DNA of 32,163 bases from Elusimicrobia bacterium GWA2_69_24 (GTDB lineage Bacteria > Elusimicrobiota > Elusimicrobia > UBA1565). The position numbers and the translations under genes are program-made. Under the pieces are notes generated by a model. The model was not told the DNA's origin and did no database searches. It saw only the letters and a list, made by a program, of their open reading frames with translations. Each line of letters starts with the position of its first letter. The stretch's first letter is position 1. Location of the stretch: NCBI GenBank assembly GCA_001799695.1, contig MGTY01000036.1:1-32163 (forward strand), in the 5' to 3' direction. Below, in pieces: positions 6,982-12,669 of the stretch.

Positions 6982-7035
6982 GTTATTTAAGTAATTCGGT
7001 AGTGGGGGCAATAACTTAAATAACTTAATCCCCGG
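6971..7035. repeat. 22 bp inverted repeat joining two convergent gene ends (probable bidirectional terminator)
   Basis: 6971-6992 is the exact reverse complement of 7014-7035, with a 21 nt spacer. It is A/T-rich in the middle of the arms (GATTAAGTTATTTAAGT). The stop codons of the exporter (6979-6981) and of the radical SAM gene (7027-7025) occupy mirror positions in the two arms, so both proteins end in Gly-Asp encoded by the repeat. As RNA, either strand forms a long hairpin ending transcription or protecting 3' ends. Confidence 0.75.
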
Positions 7036-8002
7036 GACGGGGTTGGGGGGGGTGGCGGGCGGTCCAGGTTCCCGTAGGCCAGGTCTCGTTGGCGTGGCGG
7101 AGCAGGGAGGGGTCGCCGGGGATCCGCCCGATGAAATCCGCCACCTCGGCGGAAGCCCAGGCCGCCTGGTACGCCTCCCAGGCCTGCCGGATGGTCTGGG
7201 TGCGCAGGTCGGCGGGGGCGAAGGGCAGGGCGTTGAGGAGCTTCACCTTGCCGTTGGGCACGACCAAAAGCATGGCCTGGGGGCTGGCGAGGCGTTCCTG
7301 CGTCTCGCGCACGATGTCCCAGGGGTAGACGCAGAGGCGGATGTCCCCGCCCGCGCGCGCGGCGCATTCCCGCAAGCGGGAAGCCGCGGCGGACCAATCC
7401 GCCTCGGGGAGGGAGAGCTCGTCCCACGCGGCGGCGGCGCGGCCCAGGCGCATCATCGGCCCGGTCACGAAGGCGCGGCAGCCGGCGTCCACGGCACGCG
7501 CGAACGCCGCCTCCAGGTCGCCGATGTTGACGCGGTTGGGGACGAAGACCCACTCGGGGCGGATCCCGCGCATCGCGAGGCGCCGCAGGACGGCCAGGGC
7601 CCCCGCGAAATCGCCGCCGGGGCGGACGCGCTCGTGCATGGCGCGGCTGGCCCCGTCGATCGAGATCTGGACGCATTGCGCTCCCATCCGGCGCAAGCGG
7701 TCCGCGCCTTCGTCGTCGATGCCGAGGCCGTCGGTTTCGAGCTTCAGCTCGCAGCCGCCCCGGGAGAGGATCTCGAAGACCTCCCAGGCGTGGGGCACGG
7801 CCAGGGGTTCGCCGCCGCCGAAGGCGGCATAGGGGATGGCGCACGCCACGATCTCATGGGCGATGCGCAGGGATTCTTCCCGGGGGAGCTCGTCGGGCCA
7901 GGCCCGCTCCGGGCCGGACTCCTCGCAGCAGTGAAGGCAGCGGCCTCGGCAGCGGTTGGTGAGCTGCCAGGCGAAGAAGAGGGGGGCCTCGTAGTCCGTC
8001 AC
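7025..8002 (-). CDS. Radical SAM peptide maturase-like protein (third copy, downstream of precursor)
   Basis: A 325-residue radical SAM enzyme. The [4Fe-4S]-SAM cysteines are C18, C22 and C25 ('NRCRGRCLHCC'), with 'GGGEP' at 62-66 and 'QISIDGASR' further on. The 'FAWQLTNRC' opening and the Cys-Cys-Glu-Glu-Ser-Gly after the cluster motif resemble mycofactocin (MftC) and PQQ (PqqE) maturases. The C-terminal part keeps the 'VPNGKVKLLNALPF' strand of a SPASM/twitch region but has no cysteines there, so an auxiliary cluster of the usual type is unlikely. The GTG at 8002 is chosen as start: it follows a GAGGGGGG ribosome binding site, lies 20 nt after the precursor-peptide stop, and gives the same N-terminal length as the two paralogues. 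The upstream ATG at 8092 would read out of frame through the precursor gene. It likely acts on the 37-residue peptide encoded just upstream. Confidence 0.85.
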   Translation of the reverse strand: MTDYEAPLFFAWQLTNRCRGRCLHCCEESGPERAWPDELPREESLRIAHEIVACAIPYAAFGGGEPLAVPHAWEVFEILSRGGCELKLETDGLGIDDEGADRLRRMGAQCVQISIDGASRAMHERVRPGGDFAGALAVLRRLAMRGIRPEWVFVPNRVNIGDLEAAFARAVDAGCRAFVTGPMMRLGRAAAAWDELSLPEADWSAAASRLRECAARAGGDIRLCVYPWDIVRETQERLASPQAMLLVVPNGKVKLLNALPFAPADLRTQTIRQAWEAYQAAWASAEVADFIGRIPGDPSLLRHANETWPTGTWTARHPPQPRPGD

Positions 8003-8022
8003 CGAGGCCCCCCTCTGGTTCG

Positions 8023-8136
8023 TCACGTGAAGCGGATGTACGGCTGAGCCATGACCCTCTGGGAAACTTCTTCGATCGTCGGCTTTTCCCAAACGGGCTT
8101 CTCAGCCGTCTCCTTCACGTTATTGCAGGCAGTCAT
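8023..8136 (-). CDS. PqqA-like RiPP precursor peptide (37 residues)
   Basis: Small gene with a strong ribosome binding site (AAGGAGA, 5 nt before ATG) set between two radical SAM genes. The N-terminal part is 'MTACNNVKETAEKPV' and the C-terminal part 'WEKPTIEEVSQRVMAQPYIR' followed by Phe-Thr. Counting from W16, Pro is at +3 and Tyr (Y33) at +17 and Ile at +18, the same spacing as W, P, Y and I in PqqA of Klebsiella as I recall it. The PqqA Glu at +13, which PqqE cross-links to Tyr, is Met29 here, and the Thr at +15 is Gln. There is one Tyr, one Trp and one Phe. The 15-residue head is longer than that of PqqA and may be a recognition leader for the PqqD-like protein at 11042-11506. Too short for most gene finders; the function is inferred from context and spacing. 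Confidence 0.8.
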   Translation of the reverse strand: MTACNNVKETAEKPVWEKPTIEEVSQRVMAQPYIRFT

Positions 8137-8153
8137 GATGTCTCCTTTTTCTC

Positions 8154-8180
8154 CGTCGCCCAAGGAGACGACGGGCGACG
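8154..8180 (-). promoter_or_regulatory. Hairpin just upstream of the precursor peptide gene
   Basis: Perfect 8 bp stem (CGTCGCCC / GGGCGACG) with an 11 nt loop, ending 18 nt before the ATG of the peptide gene. It lies in the 106 nt gap between radical SAM gene 2 and the peptide, the only sizeable gap in the operon. A second, smaller G/C hairpin lies near 8188-8202. Such hairpins between operon segments often mark mRNA processing or protect the downstream segment. That could raise peptide over enzyme levels. Role inferred. Confidence 0.4.
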
Positions 8181-8242
8181 AAACGGGCCGGGGAACGTCC
8201 CCCGAAAACTGGATACGCCTTACGAAGGCCCTGCGCCTGCGC

Positions 8243-9142
8243 TCAGGGCGCCTCTGCGAGGCGCCGCCGGACCTCCGGATCCTTCCAGGCCCGCCGATAA
8301 GCGTCCCAGGCCTCGCTGATGCCCTGCCGCGGCACGAACGCGCATCCCTCTTCCAGGAACGCCGACACCTTGACTGTCCCATCGGGGAGGATCAGAAGCG
8401 TCGCGGGGGGCTCCCGCAGGGCTTCCGACATCCCCTCCGCGATGGTGAAGGGATGATAGCAGAGTTCCATGGCGCTGCCAAGGACATCCGTCATCCTGGA
8501 GAGGACCGAAATCATCTTCGCGTATTCCTCCGGGGTCGGCTCCAGCTCCTCCCAACGCCGCGCCGCCCGCCCCACGCGCATGAGCGCTCCGGTGTTGAAC
8601 CGGAAGGCCCCGAGGTCCCGCGCCCGGCGCACAGTCGCGGCGATCTCCCCGATGTTCCGGCGCGTGGGCGCGAAGGTCACCTCCAGGGGCAGACCCGCCT
8701 CCCGGACCGCCCGGCAGGCGGCGTGGGCCTTCTCCAGGGACGCCCCCGGCCGCTGGCGGGCGTAGACCTCCTGGGTGTCCCCGTCGAGGCTCACCTGCAC
8801 CGACCGGATGGGCAGGGCCGCCAGCCTGCGGGCCTCCGCCGGTCCGAAACTCTGTCCGTTGGTCTCGATCTTGAGCTGGACTCCGCCCCGCCCCAGGACC
8901 TCGGCGACGGCGAAGGCCTGGGGCGCGAGCAGGGGCTCCCCGCCGCAGAGCATGACGTAGGGGACTTCGCAGGCGACGATGTCGCCCGCCAGGCGCAGGG
9001 ACCCTTCCCGGTCCAACTCCTCCGCAGCGGCGCGATCCGGCCCGGAGTCCGTGCAGCAGTGGACGCAGGCCAGGTCGCAGGCGTGGGTGAGCTGCCAGGA
9101 GACGCAGAGCGGGGCGCGCAGGGCGCCGCTGTGGAACTCCAT
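8243..9142 (-). CDS. Radical SAM peptide maturase-like protein (second copy)
   Basis: A 299-residue radical SAM protein, the shortest of three paralogues in this operon. Cluster cysteines are C22, C26 and C29 ('HACDLACVHCC'). It has 'LCGGEP' for SAM amino-group binding, and 'QLKIETNGQSF' and 'VQVSLDGDTQEVY' further in. The C-terminus 'LPDGTVKVSAFLEEGCAF' ends in 'GISEAWDAYRRAWKD', the usual SPASM-like helix, but the SPASM cysteine series is absent apart from a single Cys. The start ATG is 1 nt after the UbiA stop, so translation is coupled. It likely modifies the precursor peptide together with its two paralogues, perhaps at a different residue. Confidence 0.87.
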   Translation of the reverse strand: MEFHSGALRAPLCVSWQLTHACDLACVHCCTDSGPDRAAAEELDREGSLRLAGDIVACEVPYVMLCGGEPLLAPQAFAVAEVLGRGGVQLKIETNGQSFGPAEARRLAALPIRSVQVSLDGDTQEVYARQRPGASLEKAHAACRAVREAGLPLEVTFAPTRRNIGEIAATVRRARDLGAFRFNTGALMRVGRAARRWEELEPTPEEYAKMISVLSRMTDVLGSAMELCYHPFTIAEGMSEALREPPATLLILPDGTVKVSAFLEEGCAFVPRQGISEAWDAYRRAWKDPEVRRRLAEAP

Positions 9143-9143
9143 C

Positions 9144-10106
9144 TCAGCGGAGGCCCTCGAAAGCCAGGGCCAGGGAGAACAGCACCGTGCCCACCACGTA
9201 GCAGAGGACGATGCTCCGCACCGCGGGTACGAACTCCAGGGGCGTCTCGTAGGTGCCGGCGGCCGCGCGCCCGCTCTTCACCAGCAGGGGGACCGCCGCG
9301 AGGGTTCCGAGCGCGGTCCAGGGAAAGAGTCCCAGGAGCGCTCCCGCCGCGGGGATGGCCAGACCGGCCGCGGCCAGCCCCAGATAGATCCGCACCCCGA
9401 CGCGGCGTCCGAAGCGCACCACCAGGTTGCGCTTGCCCACCAGCCGGTCCTGGTGGAAGTCCGGGATCTCGTTGACCACGGCGAGAGCGGCGATGAGGCA
9501 GGCTGGCACCATGGAGGCGAGCAGCCCCCCCCAGGAGAAGCGCTGCGTCTGCAGATGCAGGCTCCCCAACGTCATCCAGGGCCCGTAGGAGAGGGCGATC
9601 ATGATCTCGCCCAGCCCGCGATAGACCCACCGGATGGGGGGCCCGACGTAGAACGCCGCAGCCAGCCCGCCCAGGCCCGCGTAAAGAAGCACGGGCCAGC
9701 CGGCCTCGCGCGCGAGGAGGATCCCGGTGACTGCCGCCCCGGCGAAAGCGGCCAGACCCAGCCAGAGCACGCCATCGGAGATGGGGGGCTCGTCGTTGGG
9801 GTTGAACACCCGGTCCGTGCCCAGGCGCGAGTCGAAGTACTCGTTGAAGGCCTCCACCCCGACCACGGAGAGGAAGATGCCGAAGAACCCGGCCCAGAAG
9901 ACCCCGGGGCGAAAGATCCCCTCCATCCCGAAGCCCCAGGCCGCGCCCAGCAGGTAGGGCAGCAGCCCGGCGAACAGGAAGAAGCGGTAGCGCACGAGGC
10001 TGAAGATCCGGAGCAGGGCGACGGCCCAGGACGGCCAGGAGCCCGCGTCGGCGGCGCCCCGGTCCGGAGGCTGGAAATGCGGGGGGTCGTTTATAACCGG
10101 ACCCAT
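9144..10106 (-). CDS. UbiA-family prenyltransferase (MenA-like)
   Basis: A 320-residue integral membrane protein with about eight or nine hydrophobic helices. Both Asp-rich, Mg-diphosphate-binding motifs of UbiA enzymes are present: 'NEYFDSRLGTDRVF' (about residue 90) and 'NEIPDFHQDRLVGKRNL' (about residue 205). UbiA enzymes transfer a polyprenyl chain from its diphosphate to an aromatic ring or similar acceptor in the membrane; the 'FDSRLGTD' form is closest to MenA-type enzymes as I know them. The ATG at 10106 overlaps the end of radical SAM gene 3 by 16 nt; a longer reading to 10202 is probably not used. Its position between two RiPP-type radical SAM genes, with a prenyl diphosphate synthase in the same operon, suggests a peptide-derived aromatic acceptor. 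Ordinary quinone synthesis cannot be excluded. Confidence 0.9.
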   Translation of the reverse strand: MGPVINDPPHFQPPDRGAADAGSWPSWAVALLRIFSLVRYRFFLFAGLLPYLLGAAWGFGMEGIFRPGVFWAGFFGIFLSVVGVEAFNEYFDSRLGTDRVFNPNDEPPISDGVLWLGLAAFAGAAVTGILLAREAGWPVLLYAGLGGLAAAFYVGPPIRWVYRGLGEIMIALSYGPWMTLGSLHLQTQRFSWGGLLASMVPACLIAALAVVNEIPDFHQDRLVGKRNLVVRFGRRVGVRIYLGLAAAGLAIPAAGALLGLFPWTALGTLAAVPLLVKSGRAAAGTYETPLEFVPAVRSIVLCYVVGTVLFSLALAFEGLR

Positions 10107-11041
10107 CGGTGCAGCTCCGAGGTTAGTTCGGGCCGGACTTCCATATCCGCGACGAAGCGGGCCACGCGGGGATCCCTCCACGCGGTCTTGAAATGCTCCC
10201 ACACCGCGAGGAGGGTCTGCTCGCGCAGGTCGCCGCAGACGAAGGGTAGGGCGTTGATGAGCTTCACCAGACCGTTGGGGAGCACGATGAGGAGCGCCGC
10301 CGGGTGCTCAAGGCGGCACTTGAGCTCCGCGAGGAGCCCCATCTCGTGGAAGCAGATCCGCATCCGGTCCCCGTATTCGGCGGATTTCTCATGCAGGACC
10401 CGGAAGTACCCGGCGTACTGCTCCTCGGTCGGGGCGATGCGGTCCCAGGAGCGGACGGCGTTGCCGGTGTACATGGTCCGGCCCGTGAAGAAGGCGCTCG
10501 CCCCGCACTCGAAGGCGAGGTCCACGGCCTTCCCCACTTCGCCGGCATTGCAGCGCGTGGGGCTGAAATTCACCTCGGTCGTCACCCCGGCCTCGCGCAG
10601 GCGGCGCAGTCCGCCCAGGACGTCGTCCAGGCGCCCCCCGGCGCGCAGGCGGCCGTAGGAATCCTGGGTGACCCCGTCCATGCTCACCTGCACCGACTTG
10701 ACCCCAGCGCGGCCGAGCCGGGCGCAGCGGGGGGCATCGAGGAGGACTCCGTTCGTCTCGACCTTGAGCTCGATCCCCCGGCCGCACACGGACTCCGCCA
10801 GCTCGAAGAAGGCGGGGTGCAGCATCGGCTCCCCGCCCGAGAAGGCCACATAGGGGATCTGCGCCGCGATGACCTGCTCCAGGATGCTCCGGCACTGGGC
10901 CTCGGACATCTCGTCGGGCATGCGCTTGCCCGGCCCGGACTCCTCGATGCAGTGCAGGCAGGCCAGGTTGCACTCGTTGGTCAGCTGCCAGGCGAGGTAG
11001 AGGGGAGAGCCCAGGTCGAAGGACGAGACGCCCTGCTCCAT
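10091..11041 (-). CDS. Radical SAM peptide maturase-like protein (first copy)
   Basis: A 316-residue radical SAM protein. Cluster cysteines are C24, C28 and C31 in 'LTNECNLACLHC', preceded by 'SPLYLAWQ', very like the start of the mycofactocin maturase MftC as I recall it. 'AFSGGEPMLHP', 'ELKVETNGVLL' and 'VQVSMDGVTQDSY' complete the core. The C-terminal region 'VLPNGLVKLINALPFVCGD' then 'LLAVWEHFKTAW' has the shape of a SPASM/twitch domain but only one cysteine in it. It starts directly after the stop of the PqqD-like gene (TAG ATG), so the RiPP recognition protein and this enzyme are made together and probably work as a complex, as PqqD-PqqE and MftB-MftC do. Confidence 0.88.
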   Translation of the reverse strand: MEQGVSSFDLGSPLYLAWQLTNECNLACLHCIEESGPGKRMPDEMSEAQCRSILEQVIAAQIPYVAFSGGEPMLHPAFFELAESVCGRGIELKVETNGVLLDAPRCARLGRAGVKSVQVSMDGVTQDSYGRLRAGGRLDDVLGGLRRLREAGVTTEVNFSPTRCNAGEVGKAVDLAFECGASAFFTGRTMYTGNAVRSWDRIAPTEEQYAGYFRVLHEKSAEYGDRMRICFHEMGLLAELKCRLEHPAALLIVLPNGLVKLINALPFVCGDLREQTLLAVWEHFKTAWRDPRVARFVADMEVRPELTSELHRWVRL

Positions 11042-11506
11042 CTACCCCTGCTCGACCAGCCCCTTCTCCTTGAGAAAGGCCAGGAACTCGGTCGCCTCGC
11101 GCTCGATGGCGCCGCTGGGGTCCTGGAAGCGGGCTTTGAGCCGCGCGACGATGGCCGCCTCGTCTCCGCCGCCGGCGATCTCGCGCACGACCGCCGCCCC
11201 GGTGGGGCTCAGCGTGAAGACGCGCTCCGAGCGGGTCTCGAAAAGGACCCCTCCGAACTTCTCTTCGCGGAACTTGACGTACTGCGCCAGCTTCATAGCT
11301 CCCTCCACGATCGACGGATGTTCGGCCGGCCCCCGGAGCGGGTCGTACGCCTCCCGCTCCACGATCCACTCCAGCTTCGAACGCAGGAAACTCCGCAGCG
11401 CCTCCGCCTCCCCGCTCCCCGCTCCAGCCGCGTTCGGGGACTCCGGCGCCGCCTTGTACTCTCCCGACTTCCAGGACCGGCGCGCGAGCTCGTCGTACCG
11501 GGTCAT
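11042..11506 (-). CDS. PqqD/MftB-like RiPP recognition element protein
   Basis: A 154-residue protein. Residues about 1-70 are a charged helical region with no family that I recognise. Residues about 75-154 form a PqqD-type RiPP recognition element (RRE): 'KFREEKFGGVLFETRSERVF' (beta wing), 'TLSPTGAAVVREIAGGG', then 'EREATEFLAFLKEKGLVEQG'. The 'FREEKFGGVLF' opening resembles MftB, the rest is PqqD-like. RREs bind the leader of a precursor peptide and present it to the radical SAM enzyme. The start ATG overlaps the stop of the prenyl synthase gene by one base (TGATG) and the stop abuts the next start, so it is firmly within the operon. The extra N-terminal domain makes it longer than PqqD (about 90). 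Confidence 0.82.
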   Translation of the reverse strand: MTRYDELARRSWKSGEYKAAPESPNAAGAGSGEAEALRSFLRSKLEWIVEREAYDPLRGPAEHPSIVEGAMKLAQYVKFREEKFGGVLFETRSERVFTLSPTGAAVVREIAGGGDEAAIVARLKARFQDPSGAIEREATEFLAFLKEKGLVEQG

Positions 11507-12453
11507 CAGAACTCCCTCCGGAGCATCTGATCCAGGAAATCGCGCAACCGCCGGGTTTCCTCCGCCACGGGAAGGGATTCGATGAGGGGCTGGAAACGTC
11601 CCAGCATCCCCCGCGCCGTCTCCTTGGCGGCGTCCAGATGCCCCCGCTCCCGGAATAGCGCCAGGGCTCCGGGAAAGGACTCCGGGGCGTGGCGCCGCTC
11701 CCACAGCGCGACGAAGCGCGGCCGCGCGGCCTCATCGTCCAGGGCGAGTATGCCGGGCAGGGTGAGCCGGCCGTTGGCGAAATCCTGGCCCGGAGGCTTC
11801 CCGGCGACCTCGGCGGCGAGCGTGAAATCGTGGATGTCGTCGATGACCTGGAGGATGACGCCGGTCAGGCGGCCGAGCTTGGGCGGGTCTTCCCGGCGGT
11901 GCGGGAGGCGGCTCTCGCCCGAAAGGGCCTCCCCCATCCACTCGAAGAGGGCGCCGGTCTTGCGTGCGGCGATCCCGCAATAGCCTTCGACGGACAGGTT
12001 CAGGCTGCCGGACAGGAACTCCTCCTGGAGTTCCCCCACGGCCATCTCCCGGACGGTCCGGATCAGCCCTTCCGTGGCCCGGGCCGAGACGCGGGCCGCC
12101 TCGGCCATGCCCTCGGCGAAGGCCAGGTCCCCCAGCATGACCGCGGTACGGTCGCCGAACCGCGCGTTCGGGGTCGGGGCGCCCCGGCGCACGGAGGCGC
12201 GGTCGATGCAGTCGTCCTGCAGGAGCGAGGCGTTGTGGACGAGCTCGGCCGCGCAGCCCAGGCGCTCGCAGACCCCCGCGTCCACGCCCAGGGCCGCGCC
12301 CAGCGAGAGGCCGAAACGGGCCCGGAGCATCTTGCCCGGCCGGCCGATGGCGGAGGCCAGATGGTCGCCGATGCGCCCGCCGATGGCGGCCACGTGCCGG
12401 TCCAGGCTCTCGCGGATACGGAGGAGGGGTTCCTCGACGGCGGGGGAAGTCAC
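11506..12453 (-). CDS. Trans-isoprenyl (polyprenyl) diphosphate synthase
   Basis: A 315-residue soluble all-helical enzyme of the IspA/IspB/HepT superfamily that condenses isopentenyl diphosphate with an allylic diphosphate. The substrate-binding 'GKMLRARF' (near residue 40), the first Asp-rich motif 'LLQDDCIDRASVRRG' (about 78) and the second motif 'VIDDIHDFTLAAEVAGK' (about 210, in place of the usual DDxxD) are all visible. Residues before the first motif ('LVHNASLL') are not large aromatics, which fits a medium or long product. The start is a GTG at 12453 with no ribosome binding site but a TAGAAT box 6 nt upstream. First gene of the seven-gene operon; it presumably supplies the chain used by the UbiA enzyme. 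Confidence 0.9.
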   Translation of the reverse strand: MTSPAVEEPLLRIRESLDRHVAAIGGRIGDHLASAIGRPGKMLRARFGLSLGAALGVDAGVCERLGCAAELVHNASLLQDDCIDRASVRRGAPTPNARFGDRTAVMLGDLAFAEGMAEAARVSARATEGLIRTVREMAVGELQEEFLSGSLNLSVEGYCGIAARKTGALFEWMGEALSGESRLPHRREDPPKLGRLTGVILQVIDDIHDFTLAAEVAGKPPGQDFANGRLTLPGILALDDEAARPRFVALWERRHAPESFPGALALFRERGHLDAAKETARGMLGRFQPLIESLPVAEETRRLRDFLDQMLRREF

Positions 12454-12487: not shown

Positions 12488-12557
12488 TACGCGCCGGCCA
12501 TGAGTCCGGCTCCATCCCCGTGTAGTGAGTCCAACGCTTCTTTACATTTGACAGGCC

Positions 12558-12646
12558 GTCACCCCGGCGAAAGCCGGCAGCCAGCGCGTGGAACGGATCC
12601 AAAATTCCTGCTATGGCGCCTGGACCCCGGCTTTCGCCGGGGTGAC
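12558..12646. repeat. 89 bp inverted-repeat (REP/MITE-like) element
   Basis: Perfect 20 bp arms, GTCACCCCGGCGAAAGCCGG at 12558-12577 and its reverse complement at 12627-12646, with a weaker match continuing inward. This GTCACCCCGGCGAAAGCCGGGG sequence type recurs as a short dispersed repeat in many bacterial genomes. It fills the 12454-12669 intergenic stretch between the DUF47 gene end and the operon promoter. It can fold as a long hairpin and probably ends transcription of the DUF47 gene. Confidence 0.7.
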
Positions 12647-12669
12647 GAATGTGATTGGACTTATCTAGG

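Follow-up and report, generated by a model that had tools for sequence, protein, structure and literature searches.

We describe here a seven-gene operon on the minus strand of a contig from Elusimicrobia bacterium GWA2_69_24 (assembly GCA_001799695.1, contig MGTY01000036.1, positions 1 to 32,163 of the forward strand; this whole stretch of 32,163 nt is termed the window), in which a short precursor peptide is encoded among three radical S-adenosylmethionine (SAM) enzymes and a membrane prenyltransferase. An earlier note on this DNA had placed the seven genes at 7025 to 12453, and their positions, families and spacing all proved to be as it described. When the window proteins were scored against Pfam and NCBIfam models, the first gene (11506..12453) matched isoprenyl diphosphate synthases (PF00348, polyprenyl_synt, 128.5 bits), its product carrying the two DDxxD motifs as DDCID and DDIHD. 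It is followed by genes for a 154-residue, PqqD-like RRE (the recognition element of ribosomally synthesized and post-translationally modified peptides, RiPPs), the putative peptide-binding partner (11042..11506; PF05402, 45.9 bits), for radical SAM enzyme A (10091..11041; PF04055, 85.2 bits), for a MenA-like membrane prenyltransferase of the UbiA family (9144..10106; PF01040, 67.4 bits; motifs NEYFD and NEIPDFHQD) and for radical SAM enzyme B (8243..9142; PF04055, 63.2 bits). The peptide gene (8023..8136) encodes 37 residues (MTACNNVKETAEKPVWEKPTIEEVSQRVMAQPYIRFT) that terminate in the motif MAQPYIRFT (8026..8052), and radical SAM enzyme C (PF04055, 69 bits) completes the set at 7025..8026. 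The earlier note knew of no pathway with this gene set, and no description of it was found in the open-licence PMC literature, preprints being outside the scope of that search.

Inspection of the gene calls refined two starts. The RRE most plausibly begins at the ATG at 11506 instead of the longer open reading frame's start at 11704, and radical SAM enzyme C at a GTG, either 8026 or 8002; a TTG at 8092 is disfavoured because it would overlap the peptide gene. Read from the sequence, the synthase and RRE genes overlap by 1 nt (TGATG); the RRE and radical SAM A genes abut with a 0 nt gap, radical SAM A and UbiA overlap by 16 nt, and UbiA and radical SAM B are 1 nt apart. The peptide ATG lies 106 nt beyond radical SAM B with AAGGAG just upstream, and the segment at 8141..8150 (AAAAAGGAGA) was judged by eye to be its likely ribosome-binding site.

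The peptide matches no family in Pfam or NCBIfam, and yet it is the most constant feature of the system. Forty stretches were fetched with radical SAM enzyme A as the query, giving 41 loci with the window; two (L068 and L070) stop short of the interval between enzymes B and C. In all 39 loci that span this interval a homologous peptide ends in VMAQPYIRFT, among 29 distinct peptides, with a tryptophan at -22, a proline at -19 and Glu-Glu-Val at -16 to -14 equally fixed. This invariance is not an artefact of the search, because the loci were found with the enzyme and not the peptide. A second scan, using a pattern that spells MAQPYIRF and the opening two bases of the threonine codon, returned 101 stretches from a collection of 84,980 species, in which less than one match would be expected by chance (a hand estimate). 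All 101 read MAQPYIRFT, the final threonine not being fully demanded by the pattern, and although the pattern demanded no stop, a stop codon follows immediately in 100, the remaining stretch (L126) ending at that point. Similarly, a profile search of predicted proteins matched 2703 clusters at E <= 10, and all 120 proteins among the matches listed, a set biased to the best matches, end in [VI]MAQPYIRFT. The only aromatic residues of the core are tyrosine -5 and phenylalanine -2. Such an unvarying core, across loci and labelled phyla, suggests a single fixed product, as would be expected for a cofactor.

Relationship of the encoded proteins to known families

The proteins of the operon score below both the mycofactocin and the PQQ family cut-offs. 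MftC is the highest-scoring NCBIfam family for each of the radical SAM enzymes (96.5, 117.7 and, for enzyme A, 128.7 bits; cut-off 265), and their PqqE scores of 41.8-77.2 bits fall below the cut-off of 381.35. The best NCBIfam match of the RRE is lasso_PqqD_Strm (39 bits, cut-off 70), with PqqD at 24.4 bits (cut-off 46) and MftB at 20.1 bits (cut-off 33) likewise below threshold; it has 510 relatives at E <= 0.001, and among the 120 matches listed the named organisms are Elusimicrobia or Elusimicrobiota. The CxxxCxxC motif is kept in 79/81, 48/49 and 40/41 homologues of enzymes A, B and C, respectively, and GGEP in at least 95% of the homologues of each. PqqE and MftC possess a SPASM tail with seven cysteines. 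No such cysteine-rich tail was found in the homologue alignments of A, B or C beyond residue 200, where the cysteines present in at least half of the rows are C269 alone in A (76/81), C228 (38/49) and C267 (43/49) in B, and C315 alone in C (24/41). A heme-related assignment, raised by AhbD/NirJ-like scores, was rejected because these scores lie far below cut-offs and because an RRE and a peptide accompany the enzymes.

The operon shares with mycofactocin biosynthesis (MftA/B/C) the combination of a peptide, a PqqD-like RRE and a radical SAM enzyme, as well as a fixed C-terminal core. The mycofactocin peptide ends in Val-Tyr, however, and the present system differs in its MAQPYIRFT core, its radical SAM enzymes with cysteine-poor C-termini and its MenA-like UbiA and synthase. 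With the PQQ system (PqqA/D/E) it shares a short peptide and a separate RRE, and the W-x-K-P element and tyrosine are spaced about as in PqqA; in contrast, PqqE scores are below the cut-off, no PqqB or PqqC is found among the seven genes, and a methionine occupies the position four residues before the tyrosine, where PqqA has glutamate. As to the lasso peptide systems with PqqD-type RREs, these include the best-matching RRE family, and the WxxPxL of the operon leader resembles their YxxPxL leader motif, but no lasso peptidase or cyclase is present among the seven genes, which encode radical SAM enzymes and a UbiA instead.

For the UbiA protein, the best NCBIfam match is 1,4-dihydroxy-2-naphthoate polyprenyltransferase (95.5 bits, cut-off 264); MenA is also the best family for three UbiAs from proteobacterial clusters (102.6-104.9 bits), none passing the cut-off. 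Among homologues, NEY[FY]D is kept in 61/65 and NxIPDxxQD in 56/65, and the only solved relative retrieved by a sequence search of the PDB was UBIAD1 (E 0.0011). In a maximum-likelihood tree of 39 UbiA rows, which has few reference rows and carries a long-branch warning, the 26 cluster UbiAs form one clade (support 100/100) that adjoins E. coli MenA and a MenA-like protein of Rhodothalassium (91/93) and stands apart from the MqnP, UbiA, CtaB, BchG and phosphoribosyltransferase-like rows. The earlier note had named as damaging to its proposal a firm clustering of UbiA and the synthase with housekeeping quinone enzymes as the only copies in the genome; the UbiA belongs to a clade of its own, and the genome encodes another UbiA resembling heme O synthase.

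Distribution, layouts and neighbouring genes

By their record titles, the 101 pattern-found stretches derive from Elusimicrobia, Planctomycetota, Omnitrophota, Lentisphaerae, Alpha-, Beta- and Gammaproteobacteria and single others; labels of metagenome-assembled genomes (MAGs) are unchecked and some genomes appear twice. One label looks doubtful, that of L101, titled Bordetella parapertussis in a record that is a metagenome bin. At least one cluster gene lies within 4.5 kb of the peptide on the same strand in 92/101 stretches, and RRE, UbiA and a radical SAM enzyme are all visible in 55/101, many tiles cutting the block. In eight of the nine stretches without a cluster gene, the tile extends less than 750 bases downstream. 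The ninth, L119, looks like an orphan: it adds a second peptide copy to the STD1_166 genome, and the 3.6 kb downstream of it contain no recognizable cluster genes.

Two layouts can be distinguished. In the first (Elusimicrobia and Proteobacteria), the order is RRE-A-UbiA-B-peptide-C, and the window's full order of synthase-RRE-A-UbiA-B-peptide-C recurs among its relatives in the 40 fetched stretches, some of which are cut by contig ends. The synthase occupies the same place in most of the fetched Elusimicrobia loci; L047 and L054 showed none, and none was detected next to the proteobacterial clusters examined. In the second (Planctomycetota, Omnitrophota, Lentisphaerae and a few Elusimicrobia), the order is peptide-RRE-A-UbiA, at times with a synthase. 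The three radical SAM enzymes emphasized by the earlier note accordingly hold for the window and its layout and are not universal, the second layout having one and sometimes two. Where a stretch has room for the block, the peptide, RRE, a radical SAM enzyme and UbiA occur together in 49 of 50 cases (26/26 in one layout and 23/24 in the other, L119 being the single miss), so that the regular loss of peptide or RRE that the earlier note named as damaging to its proposal is not seen. The shared core of the system comprises a peptide, a PqqD-like RRE, radical SAM enzyme A and a MenA-like UbiA, and at the gene level the features expected of a RiPP locus (a conserved precursor peptide, an RRE and a modifying enzyme) are present.

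This conserved unit sits among variable neighbours. No flanking gene family is common to more than 15 of the 41 loci, and flanking genes, a few of which resemble ligA, purH or aminotransferase genes by eye only, were set aside as members. Several local features may be recorded. Upstream of the operon, at 12555-12650, the window holds an inverted repeat whose arms are of the CCCCGGCGAAAGCCGG type and which may belong to a dispersed intergenic family. At L035 (also L153), a Fic-like motif (HPFADGNGRVARAL) occurs in an open reading frame of the B-C interval, and a 1.5 kb segment seems to divide radical SAM C in two. Judged by accession series, some genomes contain two peptide copies or clusters (L127/L191, L155/L156 and L113/L197); L113 and L197 share one contig, the L197 copy looking partial, and such pairs suggest paralogous units.

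Where respiratory genes adjoin the block, they are mostly quinone-reactive. Of 37 second-layout stretches, 10 have genes for the Na+-pumping NADH:quinone reductase (nqr) next to the peptide and on its strand: upstream at L102, L134, L135, L152, L172, L176, L179 and L191, with nqrA-E upstream at L116 and nqrF downstream at L177. The last two contigs belong to the same genome and appear to be the two flanks of a single locus in which the block separates nqrE from nqrF. NCBIfam cut-offs are passed by NqrB (358.6 bits, cut-off 349.9) and NqrD (263.5, cut-off 235) of L172 and by NqrF of L191 (311.2, cut-off 295); NqrF is the best family, at 239-287 bits and below its cut-off, for L102, L134, L135, L152, L172, L176, L177 and L179, and the L116 assignment is by BLAST grouping only. 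An unusual NqrA-like protein with a C-terminal 4Fe-4S dicluster (L102:4433-5929) scores with both NqrA and RnfC models. In the 21 proteobacterial stretches that were looked at, where only respiratory-looking neighbours were annotated, five have such neighbours. Fumarate reductase is encoded at L197 (a Burkholderiales MAG, beside the second block copy) and L137 (an Acidocella MAG), with FrdB at 422.9 and 420.6 bits (cut-off 264) and FrdA of L197 at 1120.3 (cut-off 663), these models being of the Campylobacterota type. GR16-43 (L252) encodes NapC/NirT, MtrB/PioB, a multihaem cytochrome and cytochrome b561; L157 encodes MtrB and a DmsE decahaem protein, and L184 a multihaem cytochrome.

Menaquinone genes in genomes with the block

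The possession of known menaquinone pathways (Men and the futalosine or Mqn pathway) was judged by PF02621 (MqnA/D), MenD and MenG. Among 97 genomes of relatives, 47 carry the cluster, defined by a radical SAM A match at E <= 1e-50. The cluster without strong MqnA/D (PF02621 above 100 bits) was found in these 47 genomes and strong MqnA/D without the cluster in 21, with both in none and neither in 29 (Fisher p 8e-8, uncorrected for ancestry, relatedness inflating the significance). All cluster genomes but G078 belong to the window's order; G078 has a PF02621 match of 32.8 bits. MenD above the model cut-off is absent from all 47 cluster genomes and present in 1/97 overall (G077, without the cluster). 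A further sample comprised 48 non-relative genomes reached via peptide-bearing loci, for a few of which the tile holds the peptide only; MenD (E <= 1e-40) was found in 0/48 and PF02621 in 2/48 (G136 and G137, one match each). The cluster nearly excludes both known menaquinone pathways.

The cluster-bearing relatives have complexes that use quinone but no known menaquinone pathway. NuoH-family matches are present in 88/97 relatives, including all 47 cluster genomes, although a hydrogenase subunit may underlie some of these matches (in G029 the sole match scores 119 bits), and cytochrome bd above 100 bits in 26/97 and 13/47, respectively. Compared with the Men and Mqn systems, the block is alike in its MenA-like prenyltransferase and in the quinone-dependent enzymes found in the same genomes or beside part of the loci, and unlike in that the genomes carrying it lack MenD (0/47 and 0/48) and nearly all lack MqnA/D (0/47 strong, 2/48).

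Proteobacteria that make ubiquinone often lack menaquinone genes, and the absence of Men and Mqn genes in this group consequently counts only where menaquinone has been measured. Rhodopila globiformis is such a case and the strongest single pointer to menaquinone as the product. Its genome (G124) carries the block (L150/L250) and has no PF02621 and no MenD match. It contains five UbiA-family genes, of which the cluster gene alone scores best with MenA models; three pass the cut-offs for heme O synthase, 4-hydroxybenzoate prenyltransferase and chlorophyll synthase, and a further one is PRK08238-type, its second matches being phosphoribosyltransferase-like. Ubiquinone, menaquinone and rhodoquinone have all been described in R. 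globiformis membranes, where menaquinone is modelled at the QA site (PMC9640540), and MK-9 is listed for the species in a second source (PMC12542754). For Rhodovibrio, MK-10 is reported (PMC7179689). Rhodovibrio sodomensis, which was not among the 48 non-relatives, carries the block as well (L166). Rhodothalassium is regarded as a menaquinone producer. A term search of its genome paper did not find the word menaquinone (PMC11762602).

A predicted peptide-derived quinone and its alternatives

We consider it probable that the operon makes an isoprenoid quinone whose head group derives from the MAQPYIRFT end of the peptide, the chemistry of the product being a prediction. A narrower proposal, to which we give slightly less than an even chance, is that the system may be a third route to menaquinone (vitamin K2), in which a naphthoquinone ring would be carved by radical SAM enzymes from a ribosomal peptide ending in MAQPYIRFT and prenylated by a relative of MenA. 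In Rhodopila the product would likely be menaquinone itself, and in the Elusimicrobia, which have no recognizable MenG, likely a demethylmenaquinone-like or new quinone. Mechanistically, the RRE would bind the peptide leader (WxxPxxEEVS) and present the core to radical SAM enzyme A, and to B and C where present, which may introduce carbon-carbon or oxidative changes, most likely at the only tyrosine of the core. Host proteases encoded outside the operon would then free an aromatic fragment, UbiA would couple it to the polyprenyl diphosphate made by the synthase, and the resulting lipid would act in the membrane as the quinone used by complex I, Nqr, fumarate reductase or NapC-type enzymes.

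Several observations weigh against this proposal. MenG above 120 bits was found in 22/97 relatives, including 20 of the 21 with strong MqnA/D. No cluster genome reaches that score (0/47; 107 bits at most, in G038), which argues against canonical MenG methylation in the Elusimicrobia and means that the product there need not be menaquinone. Neither pathway was found in 29/97 relatives, of which 21 have a NuoH match. Ten of these genomes belong to the window's order (G013, G014, G015, G027, G028, G036, with a partial radical SAM match at a contig end, G037, G045, G046 and G047), so that a need for quinone does not force possession of the cluster. Two more, G094 and G095, combine MenG, cytochrome bd and NuoH with no strong MqnA/D, no MenD over the cut-off and no cluster. 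Among the 48 non-relatives, NuoH is present in 33 and lacking in 15, eight of which are among the ten genomes titled Planctomycetota or Phycisphaerae. An argument for a quinone role from complex I only is accordingly weakened, because cluster-minus genomes also have NuoH and most genomes titled Planctomycetota lack it; co-occurrence or linkage with quinone-dependent enzymes was found, with the NuoH-less non-relatives and the NuoH-bearing, cluster-minus relatives as exceptions. Apparent absences in MAGs can, moreover, reflect incompleteness. With respect to neighbours, 27/37 second-layout stretches, many of them cut, have no nqr; two Omnitrophota loci (L103 and L127) first counted were reassigned by the family check, which lowered the nqr total from 12 to 10, the gene before the peptide there encoding a sulfhydrogenase- or anaerobic-sulfite-reductase-type subunit. 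Of the proteobacterial stretches, 16/21 have no respiratory neighbour of the kind described above, including that of R. globiformis, whose cluster neighbours look like housekeeping genes. Rhodothalassium encodes a second MenA-like UbiA outside its cluster (L237:4168-5157). Finally, the earlier note's proposal of a distinct RiPP-derived cofactor or lipid pathway gains support from the retained peptide and the separate UbiA clade, but that a peptide-derived group is what becomes prenylated is something we infer, and the residue supplying the ring is only predicted.

The alternative that fares best, although we regard it as unlikely, is that the operon makes a prenylated RiPP redox cofactor with no diffusible quinone pool, that is, a lipid-anchored group akin to mycofactocin or PQQ that serves particular dehydrogenases. 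The proximity of the radical SAM enzymes to MftC, the PqqD-like RRE, the invariant core and the lack of MenG over the cut-off in cluster Elusimicrobia are all consistent with it. It sits poorly, however, with the mostly quinone-reactive character of such respiratory neighbours as are present and with the near-exclusion of MqnA/D and MenD, and it leaves the menaquinone of Rhodopila unexplained; nor does any single dehydrogenase travel with the block, as follows from the limit of 15/41 loci on any neighbour family.

Considerably less probable is the coexistence of two pathways in one operon, a conventional quinone prenylation by the synthase and UbiA of an acceptor made elsewhere and an unrelated peptide product. 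The nearest UbiA families, by name, prenylate dihydroxynaphthoate and head-group genes could lie at other loci, but the joint occurrence of peptide, RRE, radical SAM enzyme and UbiA in two layouts (49/50 stretches with room) and a UbiA clade that is block-specific among the 39 rows compared argue against such independence. Radical SAM RiPPs and prenylated RiPPs with antimicrobial or signalling use exist, but a product of this kind is very improbable here, given a core unvarying across labelled phyla and the lack of any neighbour family, and hence of any exporter or immunity gene, in more than 15/41 loci, neighbours not having been annotated individually.

To our knowledge, every established quinone pathway begins with small molecules derived from chorismate or with products of tyrosine breakdown, and none with a ribosomal peptide. 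If the quinone proposal holds, the system would represent a new kind of pathway, joining RiPP chemistry to the core of respiration and supplying the missing pathway of organisms such as R. globiformis. Should the third route to menaquinone prove correct, it would explain bacteria that have menaquinone without Men or Mqn genes, a gap illustrated in a 2026 survey by four species in which menaquinone has been measured although the genome shows no pathway for it (PMC13386864). The MAQPYIRFT peptide would also serve as a marker for predicting quinones from genomes, and the proposal is directly testable in a cultured phototroph.

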